A stretch of DNA of 64,000 nucleotides from an uncultured Helicobacteraceae bacterium. GTDB taxonomy: Bacteria > Campylobacterota > Campylobacteria > Campylobacterales > Helicobacteraceae. Location: assembly GCA_944323885.1 (NCBI GenBank), contig CALUUD010000002.1, forward strand, positions 248,001 through 312,000. Direction: 5' to 3'. The position numbers and the translations under genes are program-made. Positions 3,248 to 52,637 of this stretch are shown here, in pieces (position 1 is the first letter of the stretch; every line of letters begins with the position of its first letter). The notes below the pieces were generated by a model. The model did no database searches, was not told the origin of the DNA, and saw only the letters and a program-made list of their open reading frames with translations.

Positions 3248-5170
3248 ATGATTAATATAGTTCTTATAGTTTTTATGATAGCTCTAGCTAGTTTTGATAT
3301 TTTAAGTATTAAAACTACAAGTCACAAAGACTTTAGATCAAGTATCATTATACTTGGTATTTTAGGTGTTTTAAGTGGAATTTTTATTGCGTTATTTGAT
3401 TTTGATATAGAGAATGTGAATAATTTTGTATCTATTATTATTTTTGAGTTAAAAAATGCATCTTATACATTAATTGTTAGTCTTATTCTTGTTTTAATAA
3501 TTAATATATATTATAAATTTGCTAATTTTAAAAAGGATAAGAATTTAGATTTTGCATCTTTGCAAACACATAAGTTGGATAAATTAGATGAGCTTGTTAA
3601 ATTAAATACTATAAATAATGACATAAAAGAGACTATTGTTGATGTTAAGAATAATTTAAATCAATCAATAGAATCCATATTGCAATTGATTACTAAAATC
3701 ATTGAAGATAATAAAACAAATTTTGATCTATTGCGTGACTCTAATATTGCTAATACAAAATCAATTATTGAATACAATAAAATTAATCTAAATGATATCA
3801 ATAATATAAATATCAGGCAAGCTGATTTATTAAAAGATGTAAATATGAATCTAAAGAATTTAATAGATTGTAATAATAGTTTTAAGGATAATTTTAATTC
3901 AAATATTCAAGATTTATCTAACAATATTAATAAAACTTTAAATAGTGAGATATCTAGCTTAATATCAAATTTTACAAATACGATTAATCTATATTTTAGT
4001 GAGAATTTTAAACGATTTAATAAAGGTGTGGATAATCTATTAGAGTGGCAGGATCAATATAAGAGTATTGTTGTAAATTCACAAAAAATTATTGATAATC
4101 AAAATAAATTATTAGAAAAAATAAATTCTGTTATAGCAAATATCTTAAAGCGTGATGAAAATATGTCACATTTATATGTTGATGTTTCGAATATTATGAA
4201 AGAATATAAAAATCAAAATATAAATTTAAATAAAAAGCTTCAAACTATGGATAATATTGGTGTAAATGCAGAAAACTCATTAAAATCTATGAATGAATTA
4301 TTTTGTGAATTAAATTCAAATATACAAAAAACAAATAAAAACTTAATGAATAATGCAAAATCAATTATTGATAATATCTTTATAAAGACGCTAAAACAAT
4401 TTGAAGTTCAAAATAAATTAATGATGGATTCTATGAATTCTGCAAGTAAGTCTATTTCGTCTATCATAGAATCTTCTGTAAAAAATATAGATTCTATTAA
4501 TTTATCTTTAACTAACAAGCTTCAATCATCAATAAAAGAAGTTGATAATCTTGGTATTATGATTATGCAAAACAATAAAGATGTATATGATAGTTATCAA
4601 AAATTAAGCAATAGTGTAGAGCTTAGTTTAAGTGCAATTAGTCAAAATACTAGTGATGTAATGAATGATATTAATAAAAATGGAATAGAGCATTTGCAAA
4701 ATATGGCAAAATTGTATTTTGATGATATTTCAGATTTTCAGCATAAATTATTAAATGATATTTCTAATTCCATAAATATAAATCAATCAATGCTAGATTC
4801 AAGGATTAATGAACTTGTTAATAAATATTTAGAAACTTTAGAACAAATAACAACATCAAATATTAAATCACAAAAAGAGTTAAATCATGTAAATATAGAA
4901 GAAATAAAAATTTTAAATAGTGAGGTTTCTAACTATATAAAAGAAAATGCATTATCTTTAAATAAAACAAATATAGAGATTTTGAATATTGTTGAATTTT
5001 TACAAAAAGAGCTTGAAGATTCTATGAAAAAAAGTAATTTATTGCAAAATAGTGCAAGAAACAATATTGTTGAGATAGAAAATATGCTTCATAAATCAAG
5101 TGAAAGTTTTAAAAATGATTATGAGTGGTTTTTAAGGCGTATTAGAGATATTATAGGTCAAAGAATGTAA
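3248..5170 (+). CDS. MotA/TolQ/ExbB-like membrane protein with very long coiled-coil tail
   Basis: The protein has 640 residues. Three predicted membrane spans lie at about 2-20, 32-51 and 71-90. The second and third carry a degenerate proton-channel pattern: GILGVLSGIFIALF (compare the family pattern GLLGTVxGMxxAF), then ELKNASYTLIVSLILVLIIN. The remaining 540 or so residues are Asn/Ile/Lys/Ser-rich, almost without proline or glycine, and read as a long coiled coil. The overall plan is like ZorA or other MotA-type motors with tails, but no ZorB-like OmpA protein is nearby; ExbD may be the periplasmic partner. The ATG at 3248 follows AGAG at 3240-3243. Membrane topology and coiled coil are clear, homology to MotA is probable, and function is unknown. 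Confidence 0.7.
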   Translation: MINIVLIVFMIALASFDILSIKTTSHKDFRSSIIILGILGVLSGIFIALFDFDIENVNNFVSIIIFELKNASYTLIVSLILVLIINIYYKFANFKKDKNLDFASLQTHKLDKLDELVKLNTINNDIKETIVDVKNNLNQSIESILQLITKIIEDNKTNFDLLRDSNIANTKSIIEYNKINLNDINNINIRQADLLKDVNMNLKNLIDCNNSFKDNFNSNIQDLSNNINKTLNSEISSLISNFTNTINLYFSENFKRFNKGVDNLLEWQDQYKSIVVNSQKIIDNQNKLLEKINSVIANILKRDENMSHLYVDVSNIMKEYKNQNINLNKKLQTMDNIGVNAENSLKSMNELFCELNSNIQKTNKNLMNNAKSIIDNIFIKTLKQFEVQNKLMMDSMNSASKSISSIIESSVKNIDSINLSLTNKLQSSIKEVDNLGIMIMQNNKDVYDSYQKLSNSVELSLSAISQNTSDVMNDINKNGIEHLQNMAKLYFDDISDFQHKLLNDISNSININQSMLDSRINELVNKYLETLEQITTSNIKSQKELNHVNIEEIKILNSEVSNYIKENALSLNKTNIEILNIVEFLQKELEDSMKKSNLLQNSARNNIVEIENMLHKSSESFKNDYEWFLRRIRDIIGQRM

Positions 5171-16551: not shown

Positions 16552-17529
16552 TTATTTTGTAAATAATAATTTTATTTTTTTGTATATAAATCTAACATAC
16601 TTATGAATACCAAGTTTATGAAGATATTTTTCAATAATATCTCTTTTATAAGAATAAAATGCTCTATAAGTATTTCTTTGTATCCTAGGATCTAATTGTA
16701 TATCTTTTATCAATTTTGGTAAAAAATCATTTATTAATTTTTGACTTTGCCATTTTTTATCTATGCCGCAATGTTCACCTCTTCCATCATGGCCTCTGTT
16801 TACTGATAGTGGCTTTATTGGGTAGATTGTATATCTATTTTGCTTAAACATATTGTAACATACAATAACATCGCCATATTTTTTTCCTTTTTCTAGCATA
16901 TCTTTCAAAATTACAAGCATATGTCTTGAAATTGTATTGAATTTTTCTACCTCTTCTTTATTCTCTAAAAATAAATTAATATCTTTTATTTCAAAATCTA
17001 TATCTTTATATCTATCTTTCCATAGCCCAGCACCCCAGGGAGAAAATATTTGTATTATATATACTTCGTGTGGATATTTTTTGTATGCTATGTTTTTGTA
17101 GTGTGTATGTGAAGCAATGGACATAATTCTTTTATCATCTTTATAAAATTCTAGAGCATTATTCATATATTCTAAAAACCTATTTGATACTAAAATGTCA
17201 TCTTCAAAAATAATCAATCTATCATATTTGCTAAATATATAATCCATAGCATCTTTTATAGAATCAAAGCTTCCTTTATTTGTTTCCCAAAAAATACCTT
17301 CTACTTTTTTAAAATATTGTCTATTATTCAGCTCTATTATATATTGCCTTACTTTATTTATTATATCTTGATGTTCTTCTTTATATGCGTTATCTGATAC
17401 TATATATACATTTGTGTGTTTTGCTAATTTATTATTCTTTAGATACTTTATAGCATTTTGAAGACAATCTAATCTATCATACACTGTTATTAAAACTGGG
17501 GATAAATTATTAATATTTAACTTTTCCAT
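16552..17529 (-). CDS. GT-A fold glycosyltransferase (GT2/GNT-I-like)
   Basis: The protein has 325 residues. The N-terminal SPVLITVYDRLDCLQNAIKYL is the nucleotide-sugar binding start of a GT-A fold. An acidic motif IIFEDDILV near residue 115 is the metal/nucleotide site, and FSPWGAGLWKDRYK near 190 resembles the acceptor region of sugar transferases in O-antigen loci. There is no membrane span, so it is likely cytoplasmic or peripheral. It is separated from the WbqC gene upstream by about 750 bp without genes, so it probably has its own promoter. Donor and acceptor are unknown. Confidence 0.78.
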   Translation of the reverse strand: MEKLNINNLSPVLITVYDRLDCLQNAIKYLKNNKLAKHTNVYIVSDNAYKEEHQDIINKVRQYIIELNNRQYFKKVEGIFWETNKGSFDSIKDAMDYIFSKYDRLIIFEDDILVSNRFLEYMNNALEFYKDDKRIMSIASHTHYKNIAYKKYPHEVYIIQIFSPWGAGLWKDRYKDIDFEIKDINLFLENKEEVEKFNTISRHMLVILKDMLEKGKKYGDVIVCYNMFKQNRYTIYPIKPLSVNRGHDGRGEHCGIDKKWQSQKLINDFLPKLIKDIQLDPRIQRNTYRAFYSYKRDIIEKYLHKLGIHKYVRFIYKKIKLLFTK

Positions 17530-18285
17530 GTATTGAGCCTTATTATTAAGCTAGAATGTAATTTTGTTTCTAGGTAATATATAATTATACTGTTATGTTT
17601 TAGTATATTTAATTATGTATCATTGTTATTTTTTAATGTACTATATTATTATAATAATTAATATGTTTGAACAGTTTCTTCATATAACCATCACTACTTA
17701 GTGTATAGTATCTTATAACTCTATAATTATTATAATGTATAAAAATTTATAGATTTTTAAATACAAATTTTATATCCACATGTCATTTATAAATTTATAT
17801 ATCAAATTACTAATATTTATTGTAGGCCAATACCAACTTAATCTATAATCTTAGGTTTTTTAGCTGTAATTACAGAACAATAACTCTAAGCTTTTAACTT
17901 TTTCTAGTATCAAGCAATTGTTATTTCTTGATTAGTAACTTTTATTATATTATATTTTATAAATACAAAATTATAGTATATTATATACTCTATTTTATAA
18001 AAGTGGATAAGCTAAAAGTAATCCATACACATAACCACTGCAGCCAGAATTTGGATCAAAATAAACACAATTTATATTTAACTCTAATTGATTATGTAGT
18101 ATATGCGCATTGTCTGGTTCCATAAATCAGGTGTTTAAGTTATAAAAATAATTACATCGATTTCATTTTTTTATAATAATATTGTTATGTAGTAAATCTT
18201 TTGCACTATTATAACAAAAACTAAGTATGGCAGTATTATTAGCTATAGAATTTGTTTAATAATAGATTCTATGTTTATTGCTTGT
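17530..18285. other. Gene-poor, very AT-rich stretch between glycan genes
   Basis: No convincing reading frame, RNA gene or strong hairpin is seen in these 756 bp. A 65-codon plus-strand frame at 17928-18125 contains a KVIHTHNH segment, faintly reminiscent of a glycosyltransferase 4 motif. That would fit a nearly erased glycosyltransferase remnant, but the evidence is weak. Confidence 0.4.
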
Positions 18286-19020
18286 TTATAGAAATTTTTT
18301 AGAGCTTATTTGGTATTGTAATAAAAGATTTGTGATTTCATTTTTATTATTAAATGCAATAACATCAATAATACTTAGATTTGGTATAAAGGTGTTATCA
18401 AATTGTTTGTATTTCATAGTTTGATTTACTTGTAAAAAATTTAATTCAATATTTTGATTTATGAAATCATTTTCACTATAAAGCACTGCTCCTCCAATTG
18501 AATTTATGTATTTTTTTGCATGCATAGCCTTGCATATTGCTATAACTTTATCTTGTGATTTTAAGTCATGATTAATTGGCAAAGTAGAAGAAATGAAAAT
18601 ATTTGTATCTATTCCTAGATATATACAAATTTTCATTATTGAATGGTAAATAAAATCAAATAAATTATCTTTTGGGTATATGATTATTGATTCTAATAAT
18701 GTCATTAAATCATCATGATAAGGTGCTTTTTTATACGCAAAGTGTATAGAATCTAGTAGTTTTTCTTTATTAAAATTTTGGCTTATATATCGCTCATTTA
18801 TATGTAAATAATCAGAATCTTTTTTTAATGCAATTGAAAATATACAAGGCTTATGATTTTGTAAAAAGCTATTTTTATTTACAAAATATTTTGTAGAATA
18901 CTTAATATTATCATAAATTACAAAATTATCTACTGCATTGATAAGCTGAAAATAACCAATATATGGCAAAAAATATGGCTGCATTATTGCTAGACTTTGA
19001 TTTTTTGGAGTGTATTTCAT
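18286..19020 (-). CDS. WbqC-family protein
   Basis: The protein has 244 residues from ATG 19020. AAGGAG lies 8 nt before this ATG, while an in-frame GTG three codons upstream would abut the ribosome-binding site. The N-terminus LAIMQPYFLPYIGYFQLINAVDNFVIYDNIKY is the WbqC signature. WbqC proteins occur in O-antigen and amino-sugar loci. Their reaction is not settled; transfer or activation of acyl/amino groups on dTDP-sugars has been suggested. It is the last gene of the minus-strand operon headed by the acyltransferase at 22793, with 95 bp to the preceding gene and an independent ribosome-binding site. Confidence 0.85.
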   Translation of the reverse strand: MKYTPKNQSLAIMQPYFLPYIGYFQLINAVDNFVIYDNIKYSTKYFVNKNSFLQNHKPCIFSIALKKDSDYLHINERYISQNFNKEKLLDSIHFAYKKAPYHDDLMTLLESIIIYPKDNLFDFIYHSIMKICIYLGIDTNIFISSTLPINHDLKSQDKVIAICKAMHAKKYINSIGGAVLYSENDFINQNIELNFLQVNQTMKYKQFDNTFIPNLSIIDVIAFNNKNEITNLLLQYQISSKKFL

Positions 19021-19115
19021 GCTATGCACTCCTTTTTTTGTTGTTTTGAATGTAATAATTGTTTAGCAATGTATAGCATAATTAAAAATTTTATAAATGG
19101 AGGAGAATAGATCAT

Positions 19116-20615
19116 TTAACCCCCCCCCCGTAATATAACTTTGCTTTTTAAATGATTAATATTTTGATTATTTGCAAATCTCAATTCTAGGAATTCATTA
19201 TCTTTAAATAATAAAATATTGTTTTCATAATTTTCTACTATTTCATAGTTATTTATTTCATTTTGTAGTGATTTTAAAAATTTATTTTTTATTTTTTTTA
19301 TTTCTAACACTTTAAACTCTCCTAAATTTGTTATTATTTTTGCTGCGATATTTTCTATTCCAAATGCATTAATTGTGCGTATTAACTTCTTATTGCTACT
19401 ATTTATTGGTATTTTTATTTCTTTTGGTCTAGAGTAGTAGCTTTCTTTATATTGCTTTGTTTGTATTTCTTTGAAGTTATTATCCATAGCTAACTTAAAT
19501 GCCATTGCTTCTGCTTTAAAGCATAGTTTATATAAAAGTGATAATGATAAATTTTTAATTGGTATTTCAATATGTGCTAGAATTTGGCCTCTATCTATTT
19601 CATCATCCATAGTATGAACGCTTACACCAGCTTTCTTATTGAATAAAATTGCCCCATTAATTGGATTTTTACCTCTTAATTGTGGAAGTAGTGAAGGGTG
19701 GATATTGATAAATTTTTGGTAAGGTTTTTTTAGTAGTGATACAGGCAATATATAAGGACAACCATTTGAAACCAATAGTTCAAAATCACTACTTTTTATT
19801 TCATTTAATAATTGCTCATTATTATCAAATAATATAATATTTGATAATTTTATATGTTTATGTGCATAAGAATCTTTTAATATAAGTATTTTCTCTATTT
19901 TTAGATTTGATCTTAAAATTTCATTTAGCACATTAAGCCTATTTCCTATAAAAACAACCCTTATTTGTTTGTTTTTATTTTCAATATTTGGAAAAAATGC
20001 AGGAGAGCTAGTAGAATCTTTTATTGATACAATATTATTTTTTATTTCTATGGTATTATTTTTTAAGCGGGTATATATTTGTTCAATCATTGGAATTTGC
20101 ATTGCCAATACACTTTCATAACTTTTAAATTCACTTGCTTTAATTATGCTCTGCATAATGATTGGACCAGTATCTATGCCTTCATCTATAAAATGTGCAG
20201 TATTTCCAAGTAAGAAGGCCTTTGATTTTAATGCTTTATCAATGCTTTTATTTCCAGCAAATAATGGTAGTATAGAAGGATGGAAATTGATGATTTTATT
20301 TTGATATATTTTTAGTATCTCTCCTACCAAAATTAATCTACCAAAACAAAAACATTGTGTTATTTGTAATTTATTAAAATATTTAAGCATTATACTACTT
20401 AGGTATTTATTTCTCTCCTTTTTAATTAGCCCTAATTTGTCATAGTCAATTTCTATTAATTCGATATTTTTACTTTTAGCGTAGTTTTGTAATATTTTAA
20501 GCGGTGGATTATCAAATATTATTAATTTTGTAGATTCTAACACCTTAGAATCTTTTTGAAATAGTTTTATAAGGCGTGATGCATTGCCTGATACATAAAA
20601 TGCAATTTTAAGCAC
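19116..20615 (-). CDS. Tandem formyltransferase-like protein (PurN-like half plus Fmt-like half)
   Basis: The protein has 499 residues from GTG 20615, chosen because GAGG lies 6 nt upstream and the protein then starts MLKIAFYVSGNASRLIKLF, like PurN. Residues 1-200 carry a formyl-transfer core (INFHPSILPLFAGNKSID, then HFIDEGIDTGPI). Residues about 215-400 carry a second core (INIHPSLLPQLRGKNPI, then VHTMDDEIDRGQIL) like methionyl-tRNA or sugar N-formyltransferases. Both retain the His and Asp of the N10-formyl-THF site; the usual Asn differs in each half and should be checked. Next to a DegT aminotransferase this suggests N-formylation of an amino sugar. The last codons lie in a G10 tract, giving an RGGG-stop tail. 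The start overlaps the DegT stop by 8 nt. Confidence 0.72.
   Translation of the reverse strand: MLKIAFYVSGNASRLIKLFQKDSKVLESTKLIIFDNPPLKILQNYAKSKNIELIEIDYDKLGLIKKERNKYLSSIMLKYFNKLQITQCFCFGRLILVGEILKIYQNKIINFHPSILPLFAGNKSIDKALKSKAFLLGNTAHFIDEGIDTGPIIMQSIIKASEFKSYESVLAMQIPMIEQIYTRLKNNTIEIKNNIVSIKDSTSSPAFFPNIENKNKQIRVVFIGNRLNVLNEILRSNLKIEKILILKDSYAHKHIKLSNIILFDNNEQLLNEIKSSDFELLVSNGCPYILPVSLLKKPYQKFINIHPSLLPQLRGKNPINGAILFNKKAGVSVHTMDDEIDRGQILAHIEIPIKNLSLSLLYKLCFKAEAMAFKLAMDNNFKEIQTKQYKESYYSRPKEIKIPINSSNKKLIRTINAFGIENIAAKIITNLGEFKVLEIKKIKNKFLKSLQNEINNYEIVENYENNILLFKDNEFLELRFANNQNINHLKSKVILRGGG
19120..19129. repeat. C10 tract (G10 in the gene) at the 3-prime end of the formyltransferase gene
   Basis: Ten Cs on the plus strand. 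With 10 Gs the protein ends RGGG-stop. With 11 it would continue with LNDLFSSIYKIFNYAIHC. With 9 it would end RGGVK. Tracts of this length are classic slipped-strand sites in Helicobacter. Confidence 0.9.
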
Positions 20616-21630
20616 AATACACCTCATATTTATGAAAATTAGATGTAATACAATATGAATTTCTTGCATTGTAAGTTTCATTTAAGCTTCCCCCCCCCCA
20701 TTTAATTATTTCAATGATTCTATTCATATCATTTATTTCATATCTTTGATCAATGGGTATTGCTACTAAGCTATCTCTTAGATGAATCTCAAATGAATTT
20801 TTATTGCACCATTTTTCTAGATCTTGCCAGTATGTCGCTATAAATATTTTGTTTTTAATTAGATATTGTCTTAATTTATTATCTCCAATGTATGGATATA
20901 TCATTGGTATTTCATTTTGCCCTAAAAATGATTTTATGGAATTTTTTAGAATGTTATTTAGGTGATTATAATTTTGCACTCGTTTTTGTTTTATTTTTTT
21001 GTAATTTATGGAGTGAAGTAGTGTTTTTGTCAGGTTTGACATTTTTCTAATAGTTTTAGAATCTAGTGATTTTTCAGAATCTAAAAAATATTTATAGCCA
21101 TATTCTGCACCCTCTTCAATTCGTGAAAATAAATATTTTGCCCTTTTTATACTAGAATCTTGTTTTACCCCTTTTAATGTGCTTTTTGTATCATATAAAA
21201 TTCCTCCATCGCTTACTCCTATGAATTTTCTAGGTGAATAAAAACACATTTTTGTCTTTTTTGCAAAAAAGCTTTGTGCATTATCAATTATTATATTTTT
21301 ATATTTTTTTGTAATTTCTTTTACATTGTGAGAATTTATTCCAAAATAGTCATTATAAATTATCCAATTATTATTTTTGCATTCTAGTTTTGGGCTTAAA
21401 TCTTCATTAATTGAATAAAATTTAATATTACAATGCATTTCTTTTATCGCATCTAGCACACTTTTGCAAGTAAAATATGGAATATATATTTCTTTTATGT
21501 TGTGTGTTTTTATTAGTAGCTTTATTGCACTTCTTGCTGATTGTAAATGCAGGGCATTTTTGTGTGGATATGAGTTTGTATTATTAAGTTCAAGTGCAAA
21601 GTAACCACCTATTTCTTGATATTTATTCAT
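20608..21630 (-). CDS. DegT/DnrJ/EryC1-type PLP aminotransferase, phase-variable C-terminus
   Basis: The protein has 340 residues in the present tract state. PLP-fold features include HLQSARSAIKLLIKTHN near the start, a DNAQSFFA aspartate region near 140 and the internal-aldimine lysine in SPRKFIGVSDGGILYD (about 160). Such enzymes aminate keto-sugar nucleotides. A G10 tract encodes Gly312-Gly314. With 9 or 11 Gs the protein would end after 315 or 317 residues instead of 340. The long form stops at 20608 and overlaps the formyltransferase GTG (20615). The ATG at 21630 overlaps the GNAT fragment stop by 8 nt (ATGAATAA). The fold is divergent from standard WecE, and substrate is inferred from neighbours. 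Confidence 0.78.
   Translation of the reverse strand: MNKYQEIGGYFALELNNTNSYPHKNALHLQSARSAIKLLIKTHNIKEIYIPYFTCKSVLDAIKEMHCNIKFYSINEDLSPKLECKNNNWIIYNDYFGINSHNVKEITKKYKNIIIDNAQSFFAKKTKMCFYSPRKFIGVSDGGILYDTKSTLKGVKQDSSIKRAKYLFSRIEEGAEYGYKYFLDSEKSLDSKTIRKMSNLTKTLLHSINYKKIKQKRVQNYNHLNNILKNSIKSFLGQNEIPMIYPYIGDNKLRQYLIKNKIFIATYWQDLEKWCNKNSFEIHLRDSLVAIPIDQRYEINDMNRIIEIIKWGGGSLNETYNARNSYCITSNFHKYEVYCA
20690..20699. repeat. C10 tract (G10 in the gene) near the 3-prime end of the DegT gene
   Basis: Ten Cs follow the codon for Trp311 in the minus-strand gene. 10 Gs give 340 residues, 9 give 315, 11 give 317. Confidence 0.9.
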
Positions 21631-21826
21631 AAATATCCTTTATCATCAGTTTTCTTTGTTCTTTGAAATTAAGATTTATGTATAGTTGTAGTGCTCTTAT
21701 ATTATTACTACTTACAAAAAGATCAAGTTTTTTTATATTTTTCTTTAATAGCTGTAGCTCCATTGTTCTTATAAGTTCTTTTGCTATGGAAGTAGTCGCA
21801 TTATCTTTTATCATAAGACCCCCCAT
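21623..21826 (-). pseudogene. C-terminal half of a GNAT acetyltransferase, out of frame with its N-terminal half
   Basis: Sixty-seven codons end ...LDLFVSSNNIRALQLYINLNFKEQ..., the typical closing part of a GNAT domain (variable strand, then N..A...Y...F). The N-terminal half of the same domain is the C-terminus of the gene upstream. The two frames overlap at a G6 run (21819-21824), and five Gs would join them. As written this half has a possible start at ATG 21826 but no ribosome-binding site, and alone it would lack the acetyl-CoA site. Its stop overlaps the DegT start by 8 nt, so in a repaired state it would couple translation into DegT. Confidence 0.7.
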
Positions 21827-22793
21827 TGCTATATGAAAATATTTTTCCTTGAAATTTTTCTAATACTGCAATTTGATTTAGATGTGCTATTTTTTGATTG
21901 AATTCATTTTTTATAAAGAAATGACAAAGTCCCACTATATTTTCTTCTTTTTTATTTTTTGCAAGCAGTAAATAGCATTGTTTGTTATTTAGATATTTTT
22001 GTAGTTCATTAAATTTGTCATCAAAAAAAGATTCTTTTATATAAATATCCTTAAATGATGCACTATAGGCTAATTTTATTAAAGTTTTTATGTCATTTTT
22101 ATATGGAGTGATATTTTTTTGGCATTTATGATTTTTATCATGCACATGCCCTATATTTTTATTATTTGATGATTTGTGTGATATTATTTGTTTATAAAAT
22201 TTTAGATTCCCCCCCCCCATAGAGGTATTTTTTATATGTTGCTTGAATTCTAATTCTAAGTCTAGAATCTTTTTATTTCTATTACCAATTTTTTTTGCAG
22301 GAATTCCAGCAAATATTTCAAAATCACTAATACTGCTTTTTAATAAACTATAAGCACCAAGGACACTTCCAATCCCACATACTACACCTGGTAGTATTGT
22401 TGCATTTGTGCATATTTGTGTGTGTTTATTTAGGATAACTTTTTCATATTTTGTATTACAGAAATTAGGATCTATTATTGGGCTTATTAATGCATTTCCA
22501 CTAAAGTCATCATTGCTTGCAAATATTGTTGCTTTTGGAGATATGGTGCAAAATTCTTTAATTTCTATACCACTTTTGCCACCATATAATGCTACGAATG
22601 CAGAAATATGAATAAAATTCTCTAATTTTATAGCACCACTTAAAATGCTAAAATCATCAATTCTTATATTATCTCCAAATTCCATTAAATGTGTGTTATA
22701 TAGACTAGCTTTTTTTGATATAAGTATATTTTTTGGATTATTAGGGATTTTGATTTGTAATTTTTTTAATTGTTTAATACTTAGATAAGACAT
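21801..22793 (-). CDS. Left-handed beta-helix acyltransferase fused through a G10 tract to the N-terminal half of a GNAT domain
   Basis: The protein has 330 residues. Residues 1-190 are a hexapeptide-repeat acyltransferase of the WbbJ/MaaB kind (FGDNIRIDDFSILSG, KVILNKHTQICTNATILPG, FEIFAGIPAKKIGNRNKK), probably O- or N-acetylating a sugar with acetyl-CoA. Met192-Gly195 are encoded by ATG and the G10 tract. Residues 196-330 are the first half of a GNAT domain (ITPYKNDIKTLIKLAY, LLLAKNKKEENIVGLCHFFI, LNQIAVLEKFQGK), which then shifts out of frame at a G6 run and ends SYDKR. With 9 or 11 Gs the protein would be the helix domain alone, 196 or 200 residues. It is the first gene of the minus operon, downstream of the inverted-repeat region. 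Confidence 0.75.
   Translation of the reverse strand: MSYLSIKQLKKLQIKIPNNPKNILISKKASLYNTHLMEFGDNIRIDDFSILSGAIKLENFIHISAFVALYGGKSGIEIKEFCTISPKATIFASNDDFSGNALISPIIDPNFCNTKYEKVILNKHTQICTNATILPGVVCGIGSVLGAYSLLKSSISDFEIFAGIPAKKIGNRNKKILDLELEFKQHIKNTSMGGGNLKFYKQIISHKSSNNKNIGHVHDKNHKCQKNITPYKNDIKTLIKLAYSASFKDIYIKESFFDDKFNELQKYLNNKQCYLLLAKNKKEENIVGLCHFFIKNEFNQKIAHLNQIAVLEKFQGKIFSYSNGGSYDKR
21819..21824. repeat. C6 run (G6 in the gene) at the frame break inside the GNAT domain
   Basis: AATGGGGGGTCT on the minus strand. Five Gs would read AAT GGG GGT CTT ATG and join the two GNAT halves in one frame. Confidence 0.8.
22209..22218. repeat. C10 tract (G10 in the gene) between acyltransferase and GNAT domains
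   Basis: Ten Cs on the plus strand. On the minus strand they read ATGGGGGGGGGGAAT. 10 Gs fuse the two domains; 9 or 11 Gs stop translation 1 to 5 codons after the tract. Confidence 0.9.
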
Positions 22794-22826
22794 CAGACGC
22801 TTCTATGATAAAATATTTTTAGTTAT

Positions 22827-23090
22827 AAAATAACAATTTTCAAACTTAAATTATTTTTTATATTGTTAAAATTAATAAATAAATCAAGTTATGCATATGT
22901 AATAATCAGGTAGTATAGTTATTAGGGTGTCTAAGAAATGAGATATAATACTACGACTTATTGGAATATATATTATATTAAGTATAATTGACTATAATTA
23001 TTGAATTGTTTTGTTATACAAATAAGTTATAATAAAATTTATTTAAAGGGTATACAATTCAATAAGTTTAAGTTTGAAAATTGTTATTTT
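22827..23090. repeat. Perfect 24-bp inverted repeats bracketing a 216-bp promoter-like segment between divergent operons
   Basis: The left arm at 22827-22850 is the exact reverse complement of the right arm at 23067-23090, and the match ends at both sides. The 216 bp between hold four TATAAT boxes in plus orientation (22944, 22983, 22993, 23028) and one clear one in minus orientation (about 22972). The segment fills most of the 327-bp gap between the start of the minus operon (22793) and the start of the plus operon (23121). This geometry fits a site-specific invertible promoter, but no recombinase gene is in the window and inversion itself cannot be seen from one sequence. Confidence 0.75.
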
Positions 23091-23120
23091 CAATTCAATT
23101 AAAATATTGCGGGAATATTG

Positions 23121-24311
23121 ATGCTAAGGCTTGGTTTTATTGGTGGTAGTATAGATTCTGCTATAGGATATACACATTATATTGCTGCTCGTATGGATAA
23201 TAAGTTTAGCATCGATGCTGCTTGTTTTAGTAAAAATAACGATATAAACTTGAATACAGCAAATCTATGGAGTAGTGATAATCCAATTAGGATTTATAAT
23301 AACTATTTAGATTTATTGAATGCTGAACATAATAGACTTGATGCAATATGTATCCTTACGCCTACAACTTTACATAAGCAAATTGTAATTGATTCATTAA
23401 ACCTTAATTATCCTGTTATTTGTGAAAAGACACTTTGTGTGAATTTAGATGAAGCCAAAGATATTAGTATTGCATTAAATAGTAATAATGAAAGAAAATT
23501 TTTATCCGTAATTTATAATTATACGGGTTATCCTATCTTGCGTGAATTAAAAGCTATGATAGCCAATAATGAGTTTGGTAAGATTTTTCAGATCAATGTT
23601 GAGATGCCGCAGGAGAGTTTTATCTCTACTACTAATGAAGGAATGCCAAAAGTACCTCAATCATGGAGATTAAGTGATGGTTTAATACCAACTATTTCTC
23701 TAGATTTAGGAATTCATTGTCATAATTTAATCTATTTCCTAGTTGGTAAAAGAGCTTTATGTGTATATGGTGATCACTCAAATTATGGACATTTTGATAA
23801 TATTGTTGATAATGTTAATGTTATTGCTAAATACGAGGATGATATAACGGTTAATATGTGGTTTTCAAAATGTGCACTTGGTTATAGGAATGGTTTAAAA
23901 ATAAAAGTTTTTGGAGAAAAATTAAGTGCTACATGGATTCAGACAAATCCTGAAGAAATTTATATTAATACACAATATGGTGATAGAATTATTAAAGATA
24001 GAGCTTCCCCAGGTATCACTATTGCGTCGCATAAGCGATATAATCGTTTTAAAGCTGGACATCCACAAGGTTTTGTAGAAGCTTTTGCTAATTATTATTA
24101 TGATGTTTATTTTTGTCTACAAGATTTTATTTCTCTAAGAAATTCTAAATATACTTTATCAGGAAAAGAATCATTGAATAAAGATTATGTATCAGATTTT
24201 GATTATATATTTGGTTTACAAGAGTCTTTAGAAGGATTACTTTTCTTTGAAAGTATAGTACGATCAGTTAATGAAAAAAGACAAATAATTGTTGATTATG
24301 ATAAAATATGA
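23121..24311 (+). CDS. Gfo/Idh/MocA-family oxidoreductase
   Basis: The protein has 396 residues from ATG 23121; a TTG codon directly before it is also in frame, and GCGGGA is the nearest ribosome-binding site. The N-terminal NAD(P) fold has an altered glycine loop (LGFIGGSIDSAIGYTHY), and the catalytic-lysine region is VICEKTLCVN near residue 98. The C-terminal domain carries ISLDLGIHCHNLIYFLVG. Such enzymes oxidise or reduce sugar nucleotides or inositols. It is the first gene of the plus operon that continues with FkbM, two radical SAM proteins and ATP-grasp. Substrate is unknown; a sugar nucleotide is likely by context. Confidence 0.83.
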   Translation: MLRLGFIGGSIDSAIGYTHYIAARMDNKFSIDAACFSKNNDINLNTANLWSSDNPIRIYNNYLDLLNAEHNRLDAICILTPTTLHKQIVIDSLNLNYPVICEKTLCVNLDEAKDISIALNSNNERKFLSVIYNYTGYPILRELKAMIANNEFGKIFQINVEMPQESFISTTNEGMPKVPQSWRLSDGLIPTISLDLGIHCHNLIYFLVGKRALCVYGDHSNYGHFDNIVDNVNVIAKYEDDITVNMWFSKCALGYRNGLKIKVFGEKLSATWIQTNPEEIYINTQYGDRIIKDRASPGITIASHKRYNRFKAGHPQGFVEAFANYYYDVYFCLQDFISLRNSKYTLSGKESLNKDYVSDFDYIFGLQESLEGLLFFESIVRSVNEKRQIIVDYDKI

Positions 24312-24320
24312 GGAATTACT

Positions 24321-25634
24321 ATGAATGCACTTAAAGTATATTCTACTGAAAATCTACATGCTTTAGATTTTTTTGTAGACTTTATTAATTTAGATTCTAA
24401 CCCCAAAATCATTAAACGCTATATTTTTGGACATAATCAATATTCAAAAAGTATAATTAACAGTCTTGTATCATATGATATTAGAATAGATGGTATTATT
24501 GATGATTTTACAGATAATAAATATTACCAAGTAGCACATAACTATAAAATTCCAATTATAAAATTAGTTGATTTGTGTTCTCATAGTTGTAATAATATTG
24601 ATAATATTGATTTATTATCTGTAAAAGTAGTAGTAGTAGTAACTTCGCAAACTAAAAAAGCATTTCAGAAACTTCAAGCTTTGCAAGTTAATTTTAATTT
24701 TTTGGATTTTATTGATTATTTTGCTATACAGAGAGTATCAAGAGAATTTTCCCAGAAAAATTGTAAAAATAATACTAAATTTAAAGATGTCACTTTTTTA
24801 GAACTTGAATTTTTTGATTCTTTTAAACAATCGCAAGTGCAAAAAGATGTTAGCACCTGGGAAGATTTTAGAAGCGATTATAAAGAGAATAAAGTTCGTT
24901 ATGAAAAGATATTTGAAATATTAGCTGATATGGAGTCTATGAGCCAATTTGAAAAAATTATTAATTTTCGATTAAATCAAGATTATTCATTTATGAAAAA
25001 TTTTGATTATAGGCCAAGTGAACAATACTTTGAAGATTTTTATAATATTGCAAATATTAAATATTTCTTTGATATTGGTGCTTATAGGGGTGAAACAAGC
25101 TTAGAATTTGCAAAGCGATGCGAATCATATAAGAAAATTTATTATTTTGAGCCAGAAAGACAAAATTTTATTATTGCACAAAATATATTGGAAAATAATC
25201 TTTCTAATATTCAAGGATTTAACATAGCTCTTTCAGATAGAGATGGAGAAGTATTTTTTTGTAGTGATACCACTTCAAGCCATATGATAGATAACAGTAA
25301 TGAAACATTGAGAGGTGATGATCATGATGTAGTTACTTTGCAAAAGCTTGATACATTGATGCGTAATAGACAAATATTATTAGATGATACTTCACTAAAT
25401 AGGGGGGGGGTATTTGTAAAAATTGATATTGAAAGTGCTGAACTATCTGCACTTTATGGAATGGAAGAATTTATTTCCACATATACACCAGTAATAGCAA
25501 TATGTGTATATCATAGTTTTGATGATTTATGGAAGATACCAGAGATGCTTTTATCTATAAATAAACAATATAAGATTTATTTTAGACATTATTCATCTGG
25601 ATTAACTGAGAGTGTAATGTTTTTTGTGCCATAA
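24321..25634 (+). CDS. FkbM-family methyltransferase with N-terminal Rossmann-like domain, G8 tract inside
   Basis: The protein has 437 residues. Residues 1-140 resemble the PglD-type nucleotide-sugar binding fold (IFGHNQYSKSIINSL, then GIIDDF). Residues about 245-437 are a class I SAM methyltransferase of the FkbM family: FFDIGAYRGETSLEFAK is motif I, YYFEPERQNFIIAQN follows, and VFVKIDIESAELSALYGMEE is the conserved late block. FkbM enzymes O-methylate sugars or small molecules. A G8 run at 25402-25409 falls at about residue 361, immediately before that late block, so loss or gain of one G would truncate the enzyme and destroy activity. The present frame is on. Spacing to the previous gene is 9 bp, with AGGAAT as ribosome-binding site. 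Confidence 0.82.
   Translation: MNALKVYSTENLHALDFFVDFINLDSNPKIIKRYIFGHNQYSKSIINSLVSYDIRIDGIIDDFTDNKYYQVAHNYKIPIIKLVDLCSHSCNNIDNIDLLSVKVVVVVTSQTKKAFQKLQALQVNFNFLDFIDYFAIQRVSREFSQKNCKNNTKFKDVTFLELEFFDSFKQSQVQKDVSTWEDFRSDYKENKVRYEKIFEILADMESMSQFEKIINFRLNQDYSFMKNFDYRPSEQYFEDFYNIANIKYFFDIGAYRGETSLEFAKRCESYKKIYYFEPERQNFIIAQNILENNLSNIQGFNIALSDRDGEVFFCSDTTSSHMIDNSNETLRGDDHDVVTLQKLDTLMRNRQILLDDTSLNRGGVFVKIDIESAELSALYGMEEFISTYTPVIAICVYHSFDDLWKIPEMLLSINKQYKIYFRHYSSGLTESVMFFVP
25402..25409. repeat. G8 tract inside the FkbM methyltransferase gene
   Basis: Eight Gs encode part of Arg-Gly-Gly-Val in the current on frame. A one-base change would remove the last 75 or so residues. Confidence 0.9.
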
Positions 25635-25673
25635 ATAATTGCATTATTTATTAATATTATATAAGGAATATTT

Positions 25674-26762
25674 ATGAAAGCTGAGTTTAGACAACCATAT
25701 AGTAAAGACAGAAAGCCATTAATAGATTTGTTGCCACTTAAACAACCCCTTACAATGTACATTGATCCAAGCAGTTCTTGTAATTTTAAGTGTAAATTTT
25801 GTTTTCAATCAAATAAGGATGCAGTGAAGAAAATGAATCTATCACAAATGAAACTTGATACTTTTAATAAAATAGTTGAACAACTTAAAGAGTTTGATAG
25901 TCCTATTAAAATGATTCATTTACATGGATTTGGAGAGCCATTATTAAATAAGAACTTTACTAATATGGTATCATTGTTAAAACAATCTAATGTAGTAGAA
26001 CGTATAGCAACAACTAGTAATGCGAGCTTACTTTCTTATGAATTAACTCATAAAATTGTTGAATCTAAATTAGATCAGATACACTTTAGTATTTATGGAT
26101 TAGATAATCTTAATTATAAAGTATTCTCTAATCAGACAATCGATTTTTCTAAAGTAGTTTCAAATATTAAATATTTTTATTTATATAAAACTGAGTATGC
26201 CAATAAAACAGGTCATAATTGTCATGTTCATATAAAAATGAATAAAGATTATTTTAGTAAAAGTGATCAACAAAGATTTCTTGATATTTTTGGAGATTAT
26301 GCAGATACTATATTTCTTGATGGTGTTGCAAATATTTGGCCTGGTATTGATGTTACTGATTCTCTTTCTATAAATCTTAGTAAAGATAAAAAAGAAGAAA
26401 ATGGTGTTATAACACATCAATATGGACATGAATTATCTGATATGAGAAAAATATGTCCAAATATTTTTTATCAAATTTTAATTCATAGCAATGGTGACAT
26501 AAGTCCATGTTGTGCAGATTATCAAGGTGCAATAAAACTTGGAAATATTAACACACACAATATAAGAGAAATATGGACTAATTCAAATACTAACACCAAT
26601 TTTTGTAGTAATCTTTTATCACTTCGTAGAATTCATATACAAGGTGGGCGAGATAGTATAGATGTCTGTAAATCGTGTCAGTATCCAGAACAAGCTTCTA
26701 CAACAACGCTTCATGAGTATAAGAGTCGATTGGAGGCAATATATTTTAATACAAGGTTATAA
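25674..26762 (+). CDS. Radical SAM protein with SPASM-type C-terminal Fe-S domain
   Basis: The protein has 362 residues. The radical SAM cluster motif is SCNFKCKFC at about residues 36-44, followed by HLHGFGEPLLN (the GGEP-like motif). The C-terminal part has a SPASM-like set: CPN near 262, GDISPCCADYQG near 278 and CKSCQY near 335. These enzymes use an S-adenosylmethionine radical. SPASM members modify peptides, sugars or nucleosides and bind auxiliary clusters. An AAGGAATATTT ribosome-binding site precedes ATG 25674. A second radical SAM gene starts 3 bp after its stop, so the two are almost certainly made together. Confidence 0.85.
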   Translation: MKAEFRQPYSKDRKPLIDLLPLKQPLTMYIDPSSSCNFKCKFCFQSNKDAVKKMNLSQMKLDTFNKIVEQLKEFDSPIKMIHLHGFGEPLLNKNFTNMVSLLKQSNVVERIATTSNASLLSYELTHKIVESKLDQIHFSIYGLDNLNYKVFSNQTIDFSKVVSNIKYFYLYKTEYANKTGHNCHVHIKMNKDYFSKSDQQRFLDIFGDYADTIFLDGVANIWPGIDVTDSLSINLSKDKKEENGVITHQYGHELSDMRKICPNIFYQILIHSNGDISPCCADYQGAIKLGNINTHNIREIWTNSNTNTNFCSNLLSLRRIHIQGGRDSIDVCKSCQYPEQASTTTLHEYKSRLEAIYFNTRL

Positions 26763-26765
26763 TTG

Positions 26766-27788
26766 ATGGAAGATTACAAACTGTATTCAAAAAATAAAGA
26801 CATACCATTATATAAAACGGCCGGATTATTTTATTGGGATAAGTTTTTTGATTATGGGCACAAAAATATTCAGGATATTTTGTATCTTTTTAAAAATATG
26901 GATGATAAGTCATTACAGAAAAGAATTTTTAAACAATTTGTTGGTATTTTTAATCTTGAAACAAGTGGTTTTTGTAATAGGGTATGCTCTTATTGTCCTG
27001 TATCAATATATAGAAGAAATGATAAGACTAAGGTTATAGATTCTTATATTTTTAATAAAATAATAAAAAATTTAGAGTATTTAGAGTTTAATTCAAGTAT
27101 TTGTTTAAATTATTATAATGAACCATTACTTGATCCACATATTATAGAGAGAGTTAAAGAAATTAAAATAGCCACAAATGGATTTATTCATTTTAACTCA
27201 AATGGTGATTACCTAAATATTGATATTTTAGAATCTTTAATTGATGCCGGATTAAATAAAATAAATATTACATTACATACTTTACCAAATGAATTTTATT
27301 CAGATGAGCAATCATTAGAAAAGATTAAAAAATTCTATAATAAATTAAATCTTGCTATGCCACAATATACAATTAATTCACAATCTAGCATTACAACAGA
27401 AATTAAGATAAATAGTTTTATATTATGTGTTAATACTGTAAATTGGAGTAAAATTGGTAATGATAGGGGTGGAACAATTAAACAGTTAAGTATCTCTAAT
27501 AGAACAAATCCATGTGTTCGTGTTTTTAGAGAGATTTTTTTTGATTTTTTAGGATATTCTTATTTATGTTGCAATATATTTCCAGATAAAAATAATGCAT
27601 TAGGAAGTATTACAAATCAAACAATAGAAGAAATTTATGCTAAAAATTATTTGTGGAGAAAAATATTGTTTTCATATTCTGATAAGCCGAAACCCTGTTC
27701 AACTTGTAATGATGATTCTATGTGTAGTAAAGATGATCAAATGCAAAGAGAGCAAATATTAAAAATGATTATAAAAGATATTCACTAA
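26766..27788 (+). CDS. Second radical SAM/SPASM-like protein
   Basis: The protein has 340 residues from ATG 26766; TTG at 26763 is also in frame. An N-terminal extension of about 65 residues precedes the cluster motif FCNRVCSYCPVSIYRR, then NYYNEPLLD replaces the GGEP loop. Late cysteines occur in LCCNIFPD and PCSTCNDDSMC, consistent with an auxiliary cluster. It is clearly a relative, not a copy, of the gene before it, and the two may act in sequence or as a heterodimer. The substrate is unknown. Its place in a sugar-modification operon suggests sugar deoxygenation, dehydration or epimerisation, but the sequence cannot decide this. Confidence 0.8.
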   Translation: MEDYKLYSKNKDIPLYKTAGLFYWDKFFDYGHKNIQDILYLFKNMDDKSLQKRIFKQFVGIFNLETSGFCNRVCSYCPVSIYRRNDKTKVIDSYIFNKIIKNLEYLEFNSSICLNYYNEPLLDPHIIERVKEIKIATNGFIHFNSNGDYLNIDILESLIDAGLNKINITLHTLPNEFYSDEQSLEKIKKFYNKLNLAMPQYTINSQSSITTEIKINSFILCVNTVNWSKIGNDRGGTIKQLSISNRTNPCVRVFREIFFDFLGYSYLCCNIFPDKNNALGSITNQTIEEIYAKNYLWRKILFSYSDKPKPCSTCNDDSMCSKDDQMQREQILKMIIKDIH

Positions 27789-27842
27789 TATATTAATATT
27801 ATCTAATATCAAATTATATATGATGGGATTATAGTAATTGTT

Positions 27843-29108
27843 ATGAAGAAACTTCTTATTGTAGGTGGAAAATTTTCCGATATTCCAACCATTAAATCTG
27901 CCAGAATGCTTGGCTATTATGTTATCACAAGTGGTAATAATCCATCTGATTTAGGGCACAATTTTTCTGATGAAACTATTTTATGTGATTATTCTGACAA
28001 AGATGCCATATTGGAATTATCTAAAGATTTAAAAATAGATGCTATTATGAGCTCATGTGATGATGTGTCATTGTTGACTTGTAGTTATATTTCAGACTAT
28101 TTAGGGATTGGTAATTTTGATAATTTTGAAATTTCAAAAACTATTCATTATAAGGATTTATGGCGTGAATTTTTATATAAAAATAGTTTAAATTCACCAA
28201 AGGCAAAAGGTTTTAGTAATGTAGATGATGCAATTAGTAATATACCTCGTATTTTTAAAGATTCTAAAATTATCATTAAACCTGTAGATTTTGCCACTGG
28301 CAAAGGAGTAAATGTATCTTTTGCTAACAAACCATTGTATGATATAGTAAGTGTTGCTATGCAAAATTCAAAAAGTGGGCGTATTATTGTTGAGGAATTT
28401 ATAGATGGAAGCAATCATGGATTTAGTACAATTTTACAAGATCAAAAGGTTGTGTTTTATTTTTATGATGATGAACAACATGACTTTAATCCTTTTTCAG
28501 TATCTGGTACAACAACAAGTCAATGTTTTACATCAGAAGTAGTAGAGGATATTATTAATCAGATAGAAACAATTGCTAGAATTTTAAATCTTAAAAATGG
28601 AGTATTTCATACACAAATTATTTTACATACTAATAAGGCAGGCAATAAAGTTCCTTATATAGTAGAAGCATGTAGGAGAATGGGTGGAGATTTGTATTCA
28701 GAATTTGTATCTCAAGTATGCAATATAGACTATCCAAGTCTTTGTATTCAAGCACATCAATCATTTATTCAATATATTTTTCAGGCACGAGCAGACAAAG
28801 TATTAGATATTAATATAAAAATAGATACCCCAAAGATATATCAAGGAGGATTAATAAAGTATAATATAAAAAAGAAGTATTTTGCAAGACAGTGTATCAT
28901 GAGTAGAAGAAAAGGGATGATTAAAAGTATAGATTTATCTTTACTTGAAAATGCATTAACTGATAGTTTAGTGTGGGCAAAACAGAATGATTCAATAGAT
29001 GATATTTTAAAGTATAAAGCAGGTATAGTTTTTTTGGAAGATTGTAGTATTAATTCTTTGTATGATAAAATTAATTTACTGCCAAACTGTATAAATTTAA
29101 CATCCTAA
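27843..29108 (+). CDS. ATP-grasp ligase (carbamoyl-phosphate-synthase-like fold)
   Basis: The protein has 421 residues. It starts with a preATP-grasp Rossmann fold (KKLLIVGGKFSDIPTIKSAR), continues with the ATP-binding region (IIIKPVDFATGKGVNVSF, then IIVEEFIDGSNHGFSTI) and has the metal site in PYIVEACRRMGGD near residue 280. Such enzymes join a carboxylate to an amine, thiol or hydroxyl with ATP, for example an amino acid to an amino sugar. It is 54 bp after the radical SAM pair and closes the plus operon, converging with the AddB-like gene by 4 bp of overlap. Confidence 0.85.
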   Translation: MKKLLIVGGKFSDIPTIKSARMLGYYVITSGNNPSDLGHNFSDETILCDYSDKDAILELSKDLKIDAIMSSCDDVSLLTCSYISDYLGIGNFDNFEISKTIHYKDLWREFLYKNSLNSPKAKGFSNVDDAISNIPRIFKDSKIIIKPVDFATGKGVNVSFANKPLYDIVSVAMQNSKSGRIIVEEFIDGSNHGFSTILQDQKVVFYFYDDEQHDFNPFSVSGTTTSQCFTSEVVEDIINQIETIARILNLKNGVFHTQIILHTNKAGNKVPYIVEACRRMGGDLYSEFVSQVCNIDYPSLCIQAHQSFIQYIFQARADKVLDINIKIDTPKIYQGGLIKYNIKKKYFARQCIMSRRKGMIKSIDLSLLENALTDSLVWAKQNDSIDDILKYKAGIVFLEDCSINSLYDKINLLPNCINLTS

Positions 29109-51410: not shown

Positions 51411-52637
51411 TTAACTTTTTTTATTACTTATTATATTTTGATATTGTTTTATGTATTGTTTTGCAATTACCGTTGAATCAAATTTTAAAGCCTTTTGTCT
51501 TGCATTATCTCCACAATCATTCTCTAACACCCAATCTATACCATTTGCTAAATCATCTACATCGTAACTTTTTGCTAGATAGCCATTTATTTTGTGATCA
51601 ATCATGTCGTTATTTCCACCAATATTAAATGCAACAACCGGGGTGCCACATGATAAAGATTCCATAATTGCATTGCTTAGGTTTTCTGCTAGACTAGGTA
51701 CAATGAATACATCTGATGCATTATATATTAATTTTAATGTTATATCATCATTTAAGTGTCCCATATATATGGTCTCTATATTTTCTATAGTTTCACCATG
51801 ACTTGAGCCAAATATTATTAATCTTATATTTTTATGTTTGATTTTTTTTATTGCAGTTATTAATTCATTGTAACCTTTTCTATCTATTTGTGTTGCATTA
51901 ATTGCACCAAATGTGATATTCTTTTTTGTTTTATTTAGTCCTAGAATTTCTTTTGCTATATCTTTATTCATTGGTTTAAATATTTCTGTATCAATTGGGT
52001 TTGGTAGATTTATTATTTTTTTATCTTTTAGTAGTGTAGATTCTTTTGCACAATTTGTTATCCATCTGCTTAATCCATTTATTGTTAAATTAAGTTTTTT
52101 ATATGTCTCTTTTTTTGCTTTAAATGTCCAATAACTGATATCATATTTAAAATTTGAATTTAATAGTGGACATCGATTGCAATGGTTTTTAACGCCTACA
52201 CAGGTGGATGCCACATAGTGGCATCCACCTGTGTAGGCGTTAGCATCGTGCAAGCTCCAAATCATTGGTATATTAATTTTTGTTAAATCTTTTATATTTA
52301 AAAAACCATTATTTATCCAGTGAATATGTATAATATCTGGTTTTATTTCATTAATTTTTTTTATTAGTGTTTTATTACTAAGTGTATTTGGTGAAAATAT
52401 ATCTTTGTGTCGTTTTGGATATAACATAAGTGGCAATGTTGCAAGGGCTGGACGAAGTTTTTCCATTATTTTTTGAGGTTTTGTATTTGCTAGCCTTATT
52501 ACACTAGGTAAATCTGTTGTTTTATTTTGAACTAGCATTAAAGATTCTATATTTTGTTCTAACAAAGCTTTGTGTAGTCTTAGTGCAGCTCTACCTGCTC
52601 CACCAGAATCTTGTGATATTAGATGTAATACTTTCAT
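51411..52637 (-). CDS. Glycosyltransferase family 4 with an internal palindrome
   Basis: The protein has 408 residues from ATG 52637 (GGAG 6 nt upstream; the in-frame TTG 12 bases earlier overlaps that site). MKVLHLISQDSGGAGRAALRLH is the N-terminus. The subgroup motif HDANAYTGGCHYVASTC with CNRCPLL follows at about 130-160, resembling colanic-type WcaC/GT4 enzymes. The donor half has AINATQIDRKGYNELITAI and VPSLAENLSNAIMESLSCG. The motif region is encoded by a perfect 25-bp inverted repeat with codons much richer in G and C than the rest of the gene. It is a single gene away from the other glycan loci. Confidence 0.85.
   Translation of the reverse strand: MKVLHLISQDSGGAGRAALRLHKALLEQNIESLMLVQNKTTDLPSVIRLANTKPQKIMEKLRPALATLPLMLYPKRHKDIFSPNTLSNKTLIKKINEIKPDIIHIHWINNGFLNIKDLTKINIPMIWSLHDANAYTGGCHYVASTCVGVKNHCNRCPLLNSNFKYDISYWTFKAKKETYKKLNLTINGLSRWITNCAKESTLLKDKKIINLPNPIDTEIFKPMNKDIAKEILGLNKTKKNITFGAINATQIDRKGYNELITAIKKIKHKNIRLIIFGSSHGETIENIETIYMGHLNDDITLKLIYNASDVFIVPSLAENLSNAIMESLSCGTPVVAFNIGGNNDMIDHKINGYLAKSYDVDDLANGIDWVLENDCGDNARQKALKFDSTVIAKQYIKQYQNIISNKKS
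52190..52242. repeat. Perfect 25-bp inverted repeat with 3-nt loop inside the glycosyltransferase gene
   Basis: The left arm at 52190-52214 is the exact reverse complement of the right arm at 52218-52242, and the loop is ATA. The arms begin TAACGCCTACACAGG on the plus strand and end CTGTGTAGGCGTTA. They lie wholly inside the coding sequence and encode ANAYTGGCH and VASTCVGVK. Confidence 0.95.

Follow-up and report, generated by a model that had tools for sequence, protein, structure and literature searches.

To account for surface variation in Helicobacter and Campylobacter, slipped-strand changes in poly-G tracts are mostly invoked; in Escherichia coli the fimS element is inverted by FimB and FimE. 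XerH, a single-protein tyrosine recombinase of Helicobacter and Campylobacter, is known for the resolution of chromosome dimers at difH (PMC2731167, PMC3325230, PMC5241119). The H. pylori enzyme requires FtsK. It was able to recombine direct repeats of difH inserted at ureAB, a long way from the native site, so distance from the terminus does not preclude its action (PMC3325230). In the literature we searched (open-licence papers only), XerH was tested on direct repeats alone, with FtsK, and we found no description of inversion by it. Tyrosine-recombinase inversion of promoters for surface polysaccharides is represented by Mpi of Bacteroides fragilis (cited in PMC11892184). Xer-family recombinases drive inversion and surface variation at vpma and mba of Mycoplasma and Ureaplasma (PMC3599477), and housekeeping XerC/D inverts DNA at extra dif-like sites (pdif) on Acinetobacter plasmids (PMC9947245).

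The locus described here shares with XerH/difH dimer resolution the half-site consensus, the 6-bp centre and the enzyme, but its sites are inverted, 250 bp apart and carry the centre TAACAA rather than CTGCAA; they lie in a promoter gap far from the chromosomal difH, and the predicted outcome is inversion. With Mpi and fimS it shares short inverted repeats around a promoter, a global, trans-acting tyrosine recombinase and an output in surface glycans; those systems, however, use dedicated invertases or regional regulators, whereas the candidate here is a housekeeping dimer-resolution enzyme acting on dif-like sites whose centres differ by locus. The vpma and mba systems belong to another Xer lineage with other sites, and their enzymes are specialized paralogues or candidates, not a shown dif-resolving XerH. 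The pdif inversions concern plasmid modules; they do not switch a promoter set between divergent glycan operons of a chromosome.

The window, i.e. the whole 64,000-nt stretch that was analysed (G000:C2:248001-312000), comes from a 1.449-Mb assembly in four contigs, G000, of an uncultured Helicobacteraceae bacterium. A first-pass annotation of this DNA had proposed an invertible promoter between two glycan operons. The proposal is supported by difH-like arms, a housekeeping XerH and reversed states at the glycan loci of relatives, although neither a flip of this particular segment nor an effect on expression has been shown. We put the probability that the locus is an invertible promoter driven by XerH at difH-like sites at about three in four, with flipping in the cell and the effect on transcription inferred from sequence.

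Two perfect 24-bp arms, at 22827–22850 and 23067–23090, stand in inverted orientation, are 100% complementary and enclose 216 bp, as the annotation had stated. It had also judged the match to be far beyond chance, and this holds: among 300 first-order (dinucleotide) resamplings of the intergenic gap, the maximum length of a perfect inverted repeat was 9.8 bp on average and in no case above 14. The annotation would have been refuted had the arms belonged to a dispersed repeat unrelated to recombination. We reject that reading, because the arm is present only twice in the 1.449-Mb genome, with up to three mismatches allowed, and both copies are difH-like recombination sites. A DNA search of the genus with the intergenic gap returned the locus itself and one weak, AT-rich match only, and a contig search with the Gfo/Idh protein beside it returned only a Marinobacter homologue.

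The working unit extends beyond the perfect arms. Each arm is the core of a 26-bp difH-like site (22821–22846 and 23071–23096), in which two half-sites of the TTTTCAA type flank the 6-bp centre TAACAA. The left site, on the plus strand, consists of the outer half AGTTATAAAA, the centre at 22831–22836 and the inner half TTTTCAAACT; the right site, on the minus strand, consists of the outer half GAATTGAAAA, the centre at 23081–23086 (TTGTTA on the plus strand) and the same inner half, TTTTCAAACT. In alignment with the published difH table, TTTAGTTATAAAA-TAACAA-TTTTCAAACTT is the left arm together with the bases just outside it, and GAATTGAAAA-TAACAA-TTTTCAAACTT is the right arm as read on the minus strand; difH of H. 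pylori is TTTAGTTATGAAAA-CTGCAC-TTTTCAAACTT (PMC2731167). The difH consensus of that work, TGAAAA-N6-TTTTCAAA, is matched by both arms, weakly in the outer half of the left one. The perfect 24 bp comprise four bases of the outer half (AAAA, those next to the centre), the centre, the inner half and three further bases (AAA), and identity ends within the outer halves. It covers part of one half, the centre and all of the other half, the stretch in which site-specific exchange needs identity.

The two sites are not of equal quality. The right one has no mismatch to ATTGAAAA-N6-TTTTCAAACTT, and in a strict search (control, 0) it was one of just two such sequences in the genome, the other being the chromosomal difH at C2:483893. 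The latter has the centre CTGCAA, as it does in G001, G002 and G004, and some genomes of the family have a difH identical to one tabulated for H. pylori, TATGAAAACTGCACTTTTCAAACTT (PMC2731167), from which membership of Helicobacteraceae is inferred. The two TAACAA sites are extra to this separate difH and do not fill the role of a chromosomal dif. When scored by half-sites (TTGAAAA or TTTTCAA beside a 6-bp centre), the right site is complete; the left has a full inner half and matches difH in this and in its 6-bp spacing, but its outer half is weak and holds all three of its mismatches. This outer half resembles the left arm of H. pylori, AGTTATGAAAA, minus one G, and reads TAAAA where every other paired site but one has GAAAA. 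H. pylori XerH reads the five bases concerned, and difH mutations impaired recombination, so weakness or decay of the left site is possible. The pair could then be a once-active switch, such as that of G002 (below), frozen in one orientation by its damaged half-site: the missing G of GAAAA in AGTTATAAAA is in keeping with this, as is the finding that H. pylori XerH reads the five inner base pairs of each arm specifically (PMC5241119). Yet perfect identity over 24 bp should decay in an AT-rich gap without ongoing exchange or selection, and cooperative binding with the intact partner half may let one weak half be tolerated. We regard a frozen pair as unlikely, though not to be dismissed.

The annotation had found no invertase in the window and reasoned that the enzyme must act from elsewhere; it had advised a search of the genome for tyrosine and serine recombinases. 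The search bears it out. G000 encodes a single tyrosine recombinase (PF00589), about 11.2 kb to the left of the window. This 358-aa protein matches H. pylori XerH (PDB 5jjv) over its full length with an E-value of 4.5e-104 (the next best, XerA, scores 7e-24), and the regions of the R, K, H-x-x-R, H and Y motifs align. A serine invertase was rejected, there being no PF00239 protein in the genome. The housekeeping enzyme XerH probably doubles as a surface-variation switch. Some other enzyme, e.g. one of the Piv/IS110 kind, or RecA acting at the arms, might be invoked instead, since our recombinase search did not cover all kinds and left out the IS110 type; but the sites are difH-like, G000, G001, G002, G085 and G097 encode no PF00589 protein besides XerH, and RecA would have very little homology to work with in 24 bp. 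This idea has very little to recommend it. The assignment to XerH is less clean for G074, G083 and G088, because these, like others, have a second tyrosine recombinase; G089 and G091 are not included in these recombinase counts.

The arms enclose a segment of 18% GC (22851–23066) with TATAAT boxes where the annotation had placed them, four on the plus strand (22944, 22983, 22993 and 23028) and one on the minus strand (22977). These are promoters by consensus match only, without transcript data, and such boxes are common in DNA of 18% GC, which counts against reading them as promoters. With that reservation, the locus has the design of an inverton: inverted sites around a predicted promoter segment that adjoins genes. 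It lies, again as annotated, in the gap between divergent glycan operons, which runs from the start codon of the minus operon (ATG at 22793) to a plus-strand start at about 23118. The minus operon (16552–22793) encodes a hexapeptide-type acetyltransferase with a GNAT-like tail (21801–22793), a 340-aa protein resembling a DegT-type aminotransferase (20608–21630; no Pfam or NCBIfam match), a double formyltransferase (19116–20681), WbqC (18286–19029) and a putative glycosyltransferase (16552–17529; weak GNT-I match). The plus operon (23118–29108) encodes a Gfo/Idh dehydrogenase, an FkbM methyltransferase, two radical SAM/SPASM proteins and an ATP-grasp protein.

In the mechanism that we propose, the segment 22831–23086 would be a DNA switch. 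XerH would bind the two inverted difH-like sites and exchange strands inside the identical centre TAACAA, binding and cleavage both being inferred, and the promoter-bearing segment would be reversed, probably under licence from FtsK. As assembled, most –10 boxes face the plus operon, and the putative promoters would fire mainly rightward into the Gfo/Idh–FkbM–radical SAM genes; reversed, they would drive the acetyltransferase–formyltransferase–WbqC operon. The difference between TAACAA and the chromosomal CTGCAA should prevent recombination between switch and terminus. Neither reads nor a second strain of the species document the opposite orientation at this locus.

Genes of both operons also contain poly-C or poly-G tracts of 9–10 bases (19120–19129, 20690–20699, 22209–22218 and 25402–25410), of the sort usual in slipped-strand phase variation. 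Neighbouring ORFs look frame-shifted (e.g. 21801–22793 ends in a GNAT fragment that is continued at 21623–21826). Judging from these tracts, slipped-strand variation probably acts below the inversion switch.

A congener, G002, has an orthologous locus: on one side are genes for Gfo/Idh, FkbM and radical SAM proteins, on the other those for the formyltransferase and the acetyltransferase orthologue, and both sides are homologous at 70–79% DNA identity. Two difH-like sites in inverted orientation lie between them, separated by 178 bp and each with the centre TAGAAA. DNA homology to G000 spans the Gfo/Idh leader and stops at the difH-like site. The inner segments cannot be aligned either way (forward 62, reverse 73, shuffle mean 64), which rules out demonstrating a flip of the G000 locus by this comparison. 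That the pair was kept while both centres changed together is as expected if the sites must match in order to recombine. In another congener, G004, a pair 120 bp apart with the centre CTATTC lies upstream of an ACP-synthase III/SDR gene set.

The G002 pair also bears on whether the arms might simply be duplicated operators, leaders or promoter elements common to both operons, without any recombination. The arms are oriented alike and stand at similar distances from the downstream start codons, and gapped similarity between the two halves of the gap reaches past the perfect arms, as duplication would have it. But a conserved operator would do the opposite of what G002 shows, where the difH halves are retained and both centres changed; moreover the arms match difH down to its 6-bp spacing, have no copies elsewhere in the genome and match no Rfam family (an RNA element was rejected as well). 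We consider such a duplication very improbable.

Both orientations have been seen between sister species, not at the G000 locus but at three loci of homologous architecture. In the clearest of them, between G074 and G083, a 487-bp segment is reversed at 93% identity, while the flanks are co-linear (84–91% identical). The outer halves, CTATTGAAAA and GTATTGAAAA, are fixed in place and the inner halves, TTTTCAAATC and TTTTCAATAC, have swapped places, so the crossover fell within the 6-bp centre; after the flip, the majority of TATAAT boxes point in the plus rather than the minus direction. In G091, 600 bp are reversed relative to G089 with both flanks aligned, and 131/142 bp are reversed relative to G088 with respect to the right flank, the only one that can be aligned. 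Exchange has therefore occurred at these loci; its rate is not shown by such comparisons.

Paired sites of this kind recur. We surveyed 457 kb of fetched regions, mostly chosen for holding a difH-like site, from Helicobacteraceae and one other family of the Campylobacterales. Among close pairs (up to 2.5 kb), 18 are inverted and have centres that are reverse complements of each other, a single one is direct, and two are unmatched and low scoring; the 18 are not all independent, as they include orthologues and two pairings of one three-site locus. Resampled sequence gave no inverted pairs of matching design. Most pairs lie between divergent surface-glycan operons, and one is in hsdS. Neighbouring genes encode Glf and CDP-glycerol glycerophosphotransferase (G074, G083), a glycosyltransferase and UDP-GlcNAc 2-epimerase (G069), or cytidylyltransferases (G091, G088 and G460, the last from the other family). 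Centres vary by locus even inside one genome (TTATAG and TAAGAC in G074; TTACAA and TGAGAC in G079). The strict site, by comparison, mostly occurs once per genome across the order, with the centre CTATAA or near it. For single off-centre sites elsewhere in the order (e.g. L169, L171 and L173) the fetched flanks contained no second site, and these may be chance matches.

These pairs suggest a wider proposal, for which we hold the odds to be only slightly better than even: that in Helicobacteraceae and relatives XerH, an enzyme of the essential type that resolves chromosomes, is a shared master invertase. Many genomes would carry sets of inverted difH-like pairs, whose private 6-bp centres serve as addresses without cross-reaction, and which control surface-glycan promoters and, at some loci, coding shuffles (hsdS, TupA-like). 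Since the enzyme depends on FtsK, inversion would be linked to septation, and switching thereby coupled to cell division. If true, XerH inversion would give this host-associated family a second, division-linked surface-glycan switch; invertible loci would be predictable from assemblies by their dif-like half-sites and complementary centres, and the centres would provide a natural set of orthogonal XerH sites.

Sites inside coding sequence form a separate group of observations. In G060 (L162, 5248–7205), an inverted pair with the centre TTGTAG spans 1.9 kb, one site in hsdS and the other by a partial hsdS; this is probably a type I restriction system that switches its specificity. In G091 and G089 (L154, L156), sites with the centre TGGTAA lie within TupA-like ATP-grasp coding sequence, where they read IENGNFH; G089 has three sites, with segments reversed relative to G091 in shufflon-like fashion, and this looks like a coding shuffle.

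There are also elements that lie between difH-type sites whose centre is the chromosomal CTATAA (L084 and L085 on contig C15 of G083; L089 and L164 in G074). They carry plasmid-like genes (ParA-like), some beside flagellin genes, and are probable Xer-integrated mobile elements. The G000 arms might likewise be the attachment-site scar of a Xer-exploiting element (IMEX), given that such elements seem present in the family (the one on C15 has 35 kb between its sites); but integration leaves direct sites with the chromosomal centre, and here the sites are inverted, the centre TAACAA is private and no gene is enclosed. We rejected membership of this class on those grounds and give a scar almost no credence.

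Several contigs end at or near paired difH-like sites (C5, C29 and C31 of G085; C27 and C93 of G079), as expected if the sequenced culture held both orientations. A 150–200-bp piece of an invertible segment (L091, about 3593–3795) is repeated at many places in genomes of genus g6. Elsewhere in the window, at 52190–52242, there is a 25-bp perfect inverted repeat with a 3-nt loop (TAACGCCTACACAGGTGGATGCCAC).
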